DNA of 64,000 nucleotides from contig NZ_CP069791.1 in assembly GCF_016894265.1 (NCBI RefSeq), forward strand, positions 1,674,001-1,738,000. Direction: 5' to 3'. This DNA comes from Corynebacterium tuberculostearicum (GTDB lineage Bacteria; Actinomycetota; Actinomycetes; Mycobacteriales; Mycobacteriaceae). A program made the translations under genes and the position numbers. Of the stretch, positions 17,151 through 20,320 are shown piece by piece. The notes beneath the pieces are model-generated. The model was not told where the DNA came from. It saw only the letters and a program-made list of their open reading frames with translations, and did no database searches. Positions within the stretch are counted from its first letter, which is position 1. Each line of letters opens with the position of its first letter.

Positions 17151-17495
17151 TAGTTGAAGAGGATCTACGGAAGCTGAGGGTGCGAGCCGGCCAGTAATGA
17201 AAGCCGGGCGAGAAGCGTGGAACATGGCCTTCCAGAATTCGACAAATAGTACCTGAAAATTAAGTTTGTTCGAGAAAGTATCGCGTTAGAGGGTGAAACT
17301 TTTGCGAGCCTTTGATGCGCGGAAAATTCGGGCAACTGTCCCGAAGGCGTGTACTGAAGAACTCCGGGCGAATGTGGATGACGCAGTTTCGTTCACTCAC
17401 GGGGTGCCGGGAGAGTCGGTTGCGGATTGGGGAGGCAGAAGTTCGGCCTGGACTTAGCGTGAGCCGGATGCCTAATTGGGGATCGTGGATGGGGC

Positions 17496-17548
17496 GGGGG
17501 AGTGGTCAAAGTAAACCCTTAGGGGTTGACATCCGGAGGGGGAGTGGT
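17496..17548. repeat. Direct repeat GGGGGAGTGGT, two copies 42 bp apart
   Basis: The 11-mer GGGGGAGTGGT occurs at 17496-17506 and 17538-17548. Between them is a small hairpin AACCC-TTAG-GGGTT. The 42-bp period equals four turns of DNA, so both copies would lie on the same face, as for cooperative binding of a regulator. Binding protein unknown. Confidence 0.55.
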
Positions 17549-17609
17549 TCAGTTGTCCTGGTCGTGGTCAGACTCGGGGTTGGTAGAGCGTATGGGACTC
17601 CGGTTTGAT

Positions 17610-17625
17610 AGTGATTAAAGTCACA
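17610..17625. promoter_or_regulatory. GlxR/CRP-like binding site
   Basis: AGTGATTAAAGTCACA matches the CRP-family pattern TGTGA-N6-TCACA in 9 of 10 fixed positions. In corynebacteria this is the GlxR (cAMP-dependent) motif. It sits about 1.24 kb upstream of the NlpC/P60 start. GGTAACAAAATC follows 11 bases later and, with GTCACA inside the site, resembles spaced MtrA half-sites, but that part is weak. Confidence 0.55.
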
Positions 17626-17668
17626 ATAACGGGACGGTAACAAAATCATTGCAGGTTAGGTGCACATG

Positions 17669-17703
17669 TTGAGTCATGTGAATTAACTTGACTCACGTGA
17701 ATT
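17669..17703. repeat. Tandem 16-bp repeat, 19-bp period
   Basis: TTGAGTCATGTGAATT (17669-17684) and TTGACTCACGTGAATT (17688-17703) differ at two positions only. Each copy contains the palindrome TGA(G/C)TCA. The arrangement resembles a double operator. The regulator is unknown; the TTGACT of the second copy also looks like a -35 box, but no good -10 follows at 17 bp. Confidence 0.6.
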
Positions 17704-18865
17704 GCGGGAAAATTGTGCGAAACGGGCGTGTCGTGACGTAAGGTTCGGGTGTCGACTCAGGAGACATTTCTTGCTTCCTGGGTTCATGGGCTTAGCCTTG
17801 ACTGTCACGAGAGAACTCGCACGGGTATGTGGGGAAGCACGCCTCGAGCGAAAGTTAGAACGTCGAGTGGCCGTTCTTGGAAGTCAATGAACCGGGACCT
17901 TTCGATAGCGATTGGGAACGCAGGCAAAGAACTTGAGCGATTACAATGTTCGAAAAATTACACATCAACCCACCTTCCGTTTATGAGGTGAGACGGGTTC
18001 ATTAGAACTCCACCGTGTGGAAATTTTGGTGCGAACCTTTATATGGCTAAGGCTGAAAGCCTGTTGTTGCAGAAGGTGCGTACGGAGAGGTCCATAGGGA
18101 TAGGGTCTGGGAACGCCGAATCACTCCACAAGGGTCAGCTTCGTGCGGCCTGTTCATGGTTTGTGGCTGCTTGCCCTCGACGGCTCGGTAGTACTAAAAA
18201 GGCTAGACCTTTTGGGTTCCGGTCGGCGCCGCGGCGAGGTCTGCCAGAACCCGTAGAGCAGTTCTCACGGTGCTCAGTGCAACGAAGACGTGATCGGGGC
18301 ATACGGAATCGCGGGTTGTTAGACGCATCCTGGAGCGTATGTCGCGCACAGCGAAGAATAGAAGTGGATTTCGCAGTCGTGGGAATTTGTTTGAACAGAG
18401 AATAGTTGTAGACCATTTGTGGCCGACTTGTCGGACTCACGCAAGTAGACTTTTAGGCTCTCTTGTCGGAGCACTAGTTGGCTGGATATCGCTGTTGTGG
18501 GGAAACAGTAGCGGTTAGAGTCATCCAGTATCGGCGCAGCAATCGTCCTCAACTCTCTCTAGTTCCAACATGAAAGCCCTAAGTCTGCTGAGCGTCCACA
18601 GAATGTGCACACCCGGAGTGAAGTCTCAGCCAATGTAGGCAGTCCAATACCAGTTACCGCTCTAGTGTCTGCGGGCGCCAGGGGATAGTTTCGCGTAGCT
18701 ATAGATATCTAGTCGAAGCGATTTCCTAGGCCACCCAATAAGGCATGCGATAACGCCTGTGTTTGTGCGAAATATGCAGGCGGGGAGCCCGGGCATACCT
18801 ATGTCCGGAGGTCTTCGTGGACTCTCACAAAAGGAGCAGGGTGGGCCCAAACTAGGAGTATTTCA

Positions 18866-20320
18866 GTGGCCACCATTCGCCTTCCGCGCATTCGACATGT
18901 TCGCGCTTTCATTGCTGCAGTAGCAGGTACCGCAGCCATTTCAACACTTTCCACCGTAGCCCCAGCAGGTGCCGATGAAGTATCGACGCCAAACCCGGGT
19001 TCGGTCCAGGACCAAGAGTCAGACCACGTAGCAATTGACCGTGCGGTTGCCAATGCAGATTCGCTGCAGGCCGCTGTGGAGGAGTCCCGGGCAGAGCTAG
19101 GTCGCGCGGAAGCAGATGTTTCCGGAGCGGAAGACCGTATTGCTCAGATCGGAACCCAATTGGAACAAGTGAACGGCGACCCGGGCACTAATGAAGAGTA
19201 CGTTGCCAGCTTGGAAGATGAGCTGCGCCAGGCCGGTGAGGAAAAGCGAGAAGCCGAGAATCGTGTTGCGCAGGAGCGCCGAGAGTTGGCCCAGAATGAA
19301 GCGCGACTAAACGCTACCCAAAGGTTTGCGGAGGCCACTTTTGCCCGCCAGCAGCAGGCTGCGCCCCAAGAGGAGGCAGCAAGCGGGATGCAGCTCTCGC
19401 AGCAGGATTCTCTTCCAACCTCGCCAAATCAAGTTGATAATCTTGATTCTGCAGCTCCGGCTAACGCCTTTACGGTCAATTCTGAAGACTTGACTTCCGA
19501 GGACAAGTCTCAGGGCTTTACGGATGAGGTAGTAGATCGGGGATCGCTTGAGGCTCCTGGCAGTGCGGACGTTGCCGATAATCCGGAGGCTCCATCCGTT
19601 GCTGAGCAGGATAAGACTACTCCAGAAGCGGACTTTGGAAACGCCCTCAACAAGGGTGCTACTCCGACGTTCCAGAACGTCGATTTCGGCACTGGGTCCT
19701 CTGTTAACGATGCGCTCGGACTTGCGAATGATATCGCTGCAGCCGTTGATGAGGACGATGTGCGCACCCTCATGCAGGGCTCTTCTGACTTGCTTGGTTT
19801 GGGCAGTCCGAACACTGCACCTGCCGCCAATGTTGATGCTCCCGAATTGGATGAGGTAACTGAGTCCGAGGAAACCACCACTGGTGCAGACGCGGGCCGA
19901 GACGCTCAGATCGAGGCCGTGATTTCTCGCGCTGAGTCTCAGGTCGGCGTCCCTTATGTGTGGGGTGGCGGCGATAATAATGGTCCTACTGGTGGGCTTC
20001 GCGATGGTGGCGTGGCTGATTCCTTCGGTGACTTCGGTCAGTCTGGCTTCGATTGCTCGGGGCTAGTCAAGTACGCCTACGCGGCAGCCGGCCTGGACCT
20101 TCCTCACTACACTGGTGCGCAGTACCAGCAGGGCAAGAAGGTTCCTCGTGCGAATGCACAGCGCGGTGACCTTATCTTCTACGGAGCTGGTGGAAGCCAG
20201 CACGTAGCTATCTACCTAGGCGACGGCCAAATGATTGAAGCGCCACAGTCTGGTCAGACTGTTTCAGTAGTCCCAGTACGCTGGGGTGGCGCTACTCCGG
20301 ATGTCGTGCGCCTTCTCTAA
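18866..20320 (+). CDS. Secreted NlpC/P60 peptidoglycan endopeptidase (RipA-like)
   Basis: Exported cell-wall hydrolase of 484 residues. It has an N-terminal signal peptide (basic start, hydrophobic core, likely cleavage after APAGA near residue 36), a coiled-coil region rich in E, A and R at about 50-165, a long acidic serine/threonine linker, and a C-terminal NlpC/P60 domain with catalytic C397 (FDCSGL), H446 (GSQHVAIYLG) and third polar residue E458. Such enzymes cut peptide bonds in septal peptidoglycan. GTG 18866 follows an AGGAG site seven bases before. The aconitase-DUF6676-NlpC order matches mycobacterial acn-Rv1476-ripA. Confidence 0.92.
   Translation: MATIRLPRIRHVRAFIAAVAGTAAISTLSTVAPAGADEVSTPNPGSVQDQESDHVAIDRAVANADSLQAAVEESRAELGRAEADVSGAEDRIAQIGTQLEQVNGDPGTNEEYVASLEDELRQAGEEKREAENRVAQERRELAQNEARLNATQRFAEATFARQQQAAPQEEAASGMQLSQQDSLPTSPNQVDNLDSAAPANAFTVNSEDLTSEDKSQGFTDEVVDRGSLEAPGSADVADNPEAPSVAEQDKTTPEADFGNALNKGATPTFQNVDFGTGSSVNDALGLANDIAAAVDEDDVRTLMQGSSDLLGLGSPNTAPAANVDAPELDEVTESEETTTGADAGRDAQIEAVISRAESQVGVPYVWGGGDNNGPTGGLRDGGVADSFGDFGQSGFDCSGLVKYAYAAAGLDLPHYTGAQYQQGKKVPRANAQRGDLIFYGAGGSQHVAIYLGDGQMIEAPQSGQTVSVVPVRWGGATPDVVRLL

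Follow-up and report, generated by a model that had tools for sequence, protein, structure and literature searches.

A gene-free stretch lies upstream of a RipA-type hydrolase gene

The window analysed here, a stretch of 64,000 nucleotides from Corynebacterium tuberculostearicum, contains on its forward strand a gene-free stretch (17151..18865, + strand; ORF list and Pfam) which we read as carrying the promoter and leader of a RipA-type gene. On its upstream side lies a gene for a membrane protein of the Rv1476/DUF6676 family (PF20381; 16686..17150, + strand; Pfam), and on its downstream side a RipA-type NlpC/P60 peptidoglycan hydrolase gene (PF00877; 18866..20320, + strand; ORF and Pfam). Both neighbours had been named in the initial annotation, as had the AGGAG ribosome site, which is present directly before the GTG at 18866. 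Among named relatives, the C. tuberculostearicum strains L050 and L047 are nearest to the window, with hydrolases that are 97% and 92% identical, respectively.

The stretch had been described as holding no plausible protein and as lower in G+C than its surroundings, and both descriptions were borne out: the open reading frames within 17151-18865 are small and overlapping (at most 120 amino acids, both strands), the four that were tested gave no Pfam match, and G+C is 52.6% compared to 58.4% for the whole window. A decayed protein gene would also leave behind a long region that lacks genes and is lower in G+C within an otherwise packed genome, but with four tested ORFs lacking a Pfam match, and with blocks kept by both sequence and base pairing (below), we find this origin hardly credible.

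The intergenic element is conserved across Corynebacterium

BLAST matched the intergenic DNA in 55 of 242 Corynebacterium genomes. In 11 relatives (L019-L029), approximately 217-245 nt (window 17608-17854) were 73-77% identical whereas the DUF6676 protein was just 42-48% identical, which argues that the conservation of the DNA is above chance. A 24-base motif, CACGGGYATGTGGGGAAGCACGCC (window 17820-17843), was found with up to 3 mismatches in 116 of the 242 genomes, one copy each, compared to 2 matches for the reversed pattern as control. A match in a Verrucomicrobiales MAG (L034) was discarded as chance.

Among 114 distinct loci with the motif, DUF6676 was found upstream in 106 and an NlpC domain downstream in 85, the other 29 being loci where the sequence ends 984-1,697 nt past the motif and an NlpC domain was undetected. 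A second block, GTGNCNTAYGGTTYNNNT (block A), followed by a hairpin, lay 59-131 nt upstream of the motif in 109 of the 114 loci, and the 5 loci without block A were left out. At L058 and L109, where block A was unrecognisable, the NlpC domain begins about 230 nt past the motif and a candidate start codon lies about 100 nt past it; the hydrolase seems to be reduced to its catalytic domain.

A covariance model built from the 76-sequence alignment described below found the element in 176 of the 242 Corynebacterium genomes, with no match in the other 66 at an E value of 0.001. Of the further loci found by the model, all 33 that were examined lay between acn and an NlpC gene (33/33). The position of the element before one gene family is fixed in the relatives.

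Compensatory base changes in a conserved hairpin

The motif falls within a predicted hairpin (17817..17851, + strand), here called the hallmark hairpin, in which the alignments delineate a variable, covarying outer stem, an inner stem and a conserved GGGGAAG loop. Base pairing was tested for 15 pairs in three helices on a MAFFT alignment (A1) of 76 of the 109 loci, 33 similar ones being left out. Standard pairs occupied 91.1% of cells compared to 81.7% in shuffled alignments, with 125 double-change cells against 45.4 in shuffles (n=76), and on each of five measures 0 of 500 shuffles reached the observed value; when the partners were slid by 1-3 columns as a control, 25-42% paired. In the outer stem CG, UA, GC and AU alternate at the same positions with pairing kept.

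A second alignment comprised 32 of the 33 fetched places that the model had found (E 1e-8 or better), none of them used for the model. Fitted to the covariance model, and so leaning towards its structure, this alignment was 85.6% paired compared to 72.7% in shuffles, and double-change cells numbered 72 where shuffles gave 27.6 (n=32); two of the five measures were weak, pairs with double changes being matched by 140 of 500 shuffles and further pair types by 6 of 500. The GGGGAAG loop was kept in 31 of the 32 model-found sequences, the remaining one reading GAGG. The initial annotation had proposed looking for covarying stems in related Corynebacterium genomes, and compensatory changes were found in both alignments: base pairing in the element is conserved.

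The inner hallmark hairpin can be drawn with two pairings, either 3 pairs closing a 6-nt loop or 5 pairs and a mismatch closing a 10-nt loop (C. glutamicum, L183), and 26 of 35 leaders were predicted to fold more stably than shuffles (z below -1; mean z -2.1). As a separate observation, a hairpin CCGGGCATACCTATGTCCGG is located at 18789-18808, roughly 60 nt upstream of the hydrolase start codon; its CATACCT (18794-18800) complements GGGTATG (17823-17829) of the hallmark hairpin, and similar CCCGGGCAT..TATG pieces were seen by eye to precede the start in L131 and L062.

A putative promoter and transcription start

Block A corresponds to 17733..17750 (+ strand) of the window. Its columns 6, 7 and 11, which form a TA...T hexamer, were invariant in 105/105 rows, and column 18, 7 nt after the hexamer, was G or A in 105/105 (4 of the 109 rows were left out); the TAnnnT hexamer was also kept in 76/76 and 32/32 rows of the two alignments. 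In the first of these the motif and block A were criteria for row selection, so that the constancy of both is partly built in there.

A transcript 5' end from C. glutamicum was transferred to this block by way of genome G065, which we take to be the C. glutamicum ATCC 13032 record NC_003450.3. That identification is supported by the tRNA genes of G065 at 1,365,593-1,366,023 and 1,367,573-1,367,645, which flank the published CoRP interval of NC_003450.3 (PMC11077062). RNA-seq in C. glutamicum had reported an sRNA, cgb_17355, at 1626662-1626596 between cg1735 and cg1736 (Mentz et al. 2013, PMC4046766), which is tabulated as a 67-nt trans-encoded sRNA, with an RNAz p of 0.95 in its intergenic region. 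With riboswitch coordinates that are tabulated in PMC3890552, three anchors (cg1476, cg1478 and cg1655; 1.37-1.54 Mb) found in G065 gave one coordinate shift of 1467, and the rpf1 riboswitch at 0.87 Mb gave 1471. The shift of 1467 replaced a value of approximately 1426 obtained from tmRNA, whose record would under 1467 begin 45 nt upstream of the mature RNA.

With a shift of 1467 the 5' end of cgb_17355 moves to 1625195, and the covariance-model alignment to the C. glutamicum locus places this base on column 18 of block A. The transfer assumes one coordinate system shared by both 2013 papers, and its nearest anchor is 82 kb off. A 5' end on column 18, with TA...T 7 nt before it, suggested that block A is best read as the core promoter of the hydrolase gene and that the RNA opens with the 5' hairpin; a first reading of block A as an RNA element was dropped once the transferred 5' end pointed to a core promoter. 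Applied to the window, the same rule predicts that TAAGGT at 17739-17744 is the -10 hexamer and that transcription begins at G17751, the first base of a putative 5'-terminal hairpin region (17751..17767, + strand). The clade to which the window belongs shows only a weak stem here.

A leader peptide (uORF) at block A was also considered, GTG or TTG opening the block in 106 of the 109 loci. It was rejected because in 13 of the 109 loci (window included) the frame ends at its third codon, its length scatters, and on average the frame following the GTG or TTG is no longer than frame 3.

An operator-like region upstream of the predicted promoter

The repeats, GlxR-like site and tandem operator-like repeat listed in the initial annotation were all found in place. 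A site GTGATTAAAGTCACA (17611..17625, + strand), whose half-sites recur in the alignments of relatives and in the C. glutamicum sequence, is presumably GlxR-like. It is followed by a conserved block with GGTAACAAAATCATTGCAGGTTAGG (17626..17665, + strand), from the alignments a probable operator region, and by an operator-like tandem repeat in the sequence at 17669-17703; GGnGGGGGAGTGGT repeats begin at 17493 and 17535. A block at 17491-17550 with two GGGGGAGTGG repeats, also upstream of the promoter, gave a separate match of 71-90% identity in several clade members.

Such an arrangement could be a long promoter and operator region in which only DNA elements are conserved and any RNA is functionless: 17733-17750 reads as a core promoter, the GlxR-like site lies upstream of it, and in mycobacteria MtrA is reported to bind the promoter of ripA (PMC12282275). 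Downstream of the predicted start, nevertheless, the hallmark hairpin has an outer stem that swaps CG, UA, GC and AU yet stays paired. An operator would keep its letters and the outer stem does not, for which reason we regard a purely DNA-level explanation as very improbable.

Conservation in other genera

Across the family, 69 of 401 genomes, representing 11 of 31 genera, carried the promoter block with at most 1 mismatch, and 0 carried its reversed pattern. Forty of the 60 block-A places outside Corynebacterium were examined: a ripA homologue lay downstream at 32 of them (six genera), together with acn at 28, and the 8 with neither ripA nor acn near were discarded as chance. In 8 of the 32 (five genera), compared to 1.2 expected, GGGGAAG was present no more than 200 nt from the predicted start, apical in a predicted hairpin, with 3 of 22 in genus g8 and 0 of 5 in g29. 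The covariance model gave four weak matches only outside Corynebacterium (E 0.002-0.009). At L226-L246, in other genera, a direct repeat, GGTAATCAC-N5-TGTAATT or similar, was seen upstream of the -10 of the ripA promoter and is reminiscent of an MtrA site.

Predicted leader length varies between lineages

If the transcript is continuous from G17751 to the GTG, the hydrolase mRNA of the window would have a 5' leader of 1,115 nt (17751..18865, + strand). Predicted leaders at the 80 of 114 loci where both ends were assigned by script (the other 34 being left out) ranged from 158 to 1,156 nt with a median of 293; 54 were of 400 nt or less, 6 of 400-800 nt and 20 of more than 800 nt. As 54 of the 80 were only 158-400 nt long, what is conserved is not the length, and the leader of the window, at about 1.1 kb with approximately 1 kb after the hairpin, looks like a lineage expansion of the commoner short leader. 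Members of the window's clade are well conserved as far as about 18285 and less so beyond it, the clade-conserved part of the expanded leader (17870..18285, + strand) consisting of blocks at approximately 17870-17900, 17930-18020, 18140-18170 and 18230-18290.

The initial annotation had suggested a promoter far upstream followed by an exceptionally long leader or a structured RNA. The predicted start at 17751 and the conserved folded RNA before the hydrolase gene speak for the far promoter and the structured RNA, whereas the exceptional length looks lineage-specific. Its suggestion that most of the stretch is transcribed as structured RNA fared less well, since clade conservation falls beyond about 18285 and a transcript spanning 17751-18865 is a prediction only.

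A separate trans-acting sRNA gene could instead lie upstream of ripA, the hydrolase having its own promoter nearer the start codon. This would suit the reported 67-nt trans-encoded cgb_17355 (PMC4046766) and the window's clade, where hairpin and gene are 1 kb apart and the sequence is less conserved beyond about 18285. It sits poorly with the NlpC gene following the element at every one of the 33 extra Corynebacterium loci and following the promoter block at 32 loci of six other genera, and with a hydrolase gene that begins no more than 400 nt from the predicted start in 54 of 80 loci; moreover, terminator-like sites in the window were not above chance (1 found compared to 2.0 expected). An independent sRNA gene is therefore, in our judgement, improbable.

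The short leaders also contain repeated sequences near the gene. Of the 54 short leaders, 28 had GTCAAG or CTTGAC in the last 100 nt ahead of the start (1.7 by shuffling) and 11 had an inverted repeat of the type GTCAAG..CTTGAC (0.06 by shuffling), such repeats lying immediately 5' of the ribosome site in L043, L058, L083, L106, L109, L150 and L154. Small hairpins with a shared CTAGTCA loop, often several per leader, were seen by eye in L087, L098, L103, L122, L124, L125, L129 and L145; TAGTCA was present in 15 of 54 leaders compared to 0.6 expected, and the CTAGTCA hairpins look like a repeated binding site.

How the leader may act

Searches with Rfam 15 (4,227 covariance models) at gathering and relaxed thresholds gave no match in 17151-18865, nor was there a match in ten diverse relatives (RF00379 followed up to E 1) or, at the gathering threshold, at the C. 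glutamicum locus L175. The initial annotation, which had named an Rfam search as a check, had found the core of the c-di-AMP (ydaO) riboswitch to be absent, and RF00379 indeed gave no match in the window; this negative has a positive control, as searching C. glutamicum with these models recovered the riboswitch ahead of rpf1 (L267; RF00379, 72.2 bits). The element most likely represents a new structured leader family, cis-regulatory and without an Rfam match.

Ribosome-site masking and switch pairing were tested on 35 hand-picked short-leader loci. By thermodynamic prediction the ribosome site was less accessible than controls in 12 of 35 leaders, with a mean unpaired value of 0.38 compared to 0.35, and the upstream and downstream parts of the 35 leaders were without excess complementarity (mean z +0.4). 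As no terminator, masking or switch pairing was found, the regulatory step is one that we infer.

A new class of small-molecule riboswitch would also present itself as a conserved folded leader ahead of one gene family, and another NlpC/P60 gene, C. glutamicum nlpC, has a c-di-AMP riboswitch (PMC9960051). What is conserved here is, though, in essence one hairpin loop, the linker to the 5' hairpin is highly variable (59-131 nt between block A and motif), neither alternative pairing nor ribosome-site masking was found and no Rfam family matched; we consider such a riboswitch unlikely.

We favour, with reasonable confidence from the comparative sequence evidence, a structured leader RNA that is conserved, acts in cis on the gene for a RipA-type cell-separation hydrolase, and has a loop that would bind a trans-acting factor. 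Transcription would begin at the conserved promoter below the GlxR-like operator region, about 1.1 kb upstream of the gene (predicted G17751), and the leader, presumably co-transcribed with the hydrolase gene, would run from the 5' hairpin through the GGGGAAG-loop hairpin to the AGGAG/GTG start. Because conservation is strongest in a loop that is exposed, GGGGAAG may be the docking site for the trans-acting factor, which could be a protein or a small RNA and would set RipA translation or mRNA stability as a second level of control. The more far-reaching proposal, that the loop docks a trans factor which is possibly 6C RNA, and that RipA-type hydrolases are restrained post-transcriptionally in this way in corynebacteria and related genera, is speculative and on balance doubtful.

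RipA-type enzymes cut the cell wall as daughter cells separate, and they need restraint because unchecked wall cutting endangers the cell. The leader RNA probably helps to control cell separation. Control of ripA is known at the promoter, by MtrA in mycobacteria (PMC12282275), and at the level of the protein (PMC9897464), the text of the latter report having no mention of leader, untranslated, promoter, MtrA, transcription or GlxR. A conserved leader RNA would, if true, add a post-transcriptional layer to RipA control in a family to which major pathogens belong, as does C. glutamicum, the amino-acid producer, in which the leader hypothesis is directly testable.

Comparison with known RNA systems

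In a literature search of article main texts, the leader RNA was undescribed apart from a table row for cgb_17355 in PMC4046766, and no further paper naming cgb_17355 was found. The leader and cgb_17355 share the cg1735/cg1736 intergenic region, the transferred 5' end of the sRNA falls on the predicted start, and RNAz structure is reported there (PMC4046766); in contrast, that entry presents cgb_17355 as a 67-nt trans-encoded sRNA without structure, family, leader role or breadth. Truncation of the leader, or a product of its own, could account for the 67-nt RNA.

Another structured intergenic corynebacterial RNA outside the classic families is the CoRP RNA described in C. glutamicum (PMC11077062). 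It is located elsewhere, between tRNA genes at NC_003450.3 1366239-1366719 (PMC11077062), and the best score of our model in the CoRP region, 9.9 bits, fell outside the CoRP interval.

The conserved GGGG of the ripA leader loop resembles the targets of 6C RNA, in that B11 (the 6C RNA, RF01066, of mycobacteria) represses eccB4, where a G-tract in the 5' UTR could pair with its C-rich loops (PMC10470900). The ripA element differs in being a leader, and so possibly a target rather than a 6C RNA itself. A 6C candidate in the window's genome scored 46.4 bits, just under the cut-off of 47, and a 6C match was absent from one of seven genomes searched; the predicted contact of 6C RNA with the ripA leader is GGGG-CCCC alone, the flanks being unsuited.

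Compared to the c-di-AMP (ydaO, RF00379) riboswitches of corynebacterial rpf1 and nlpC, the ripA leader has no sequence or structure match, precedes another gene and has a simpler fold. The nlpC gene of C. glutamicum, which like ripA encodes an NlpC/P60 protein, is under a c-di-AMP riboswitch with a proposed translational action (PMC9960051), and the predicted ripA leader resembles the rpf1 and nlpC riboswitches in being a structured leader of a cell-wall hydrolase gene.
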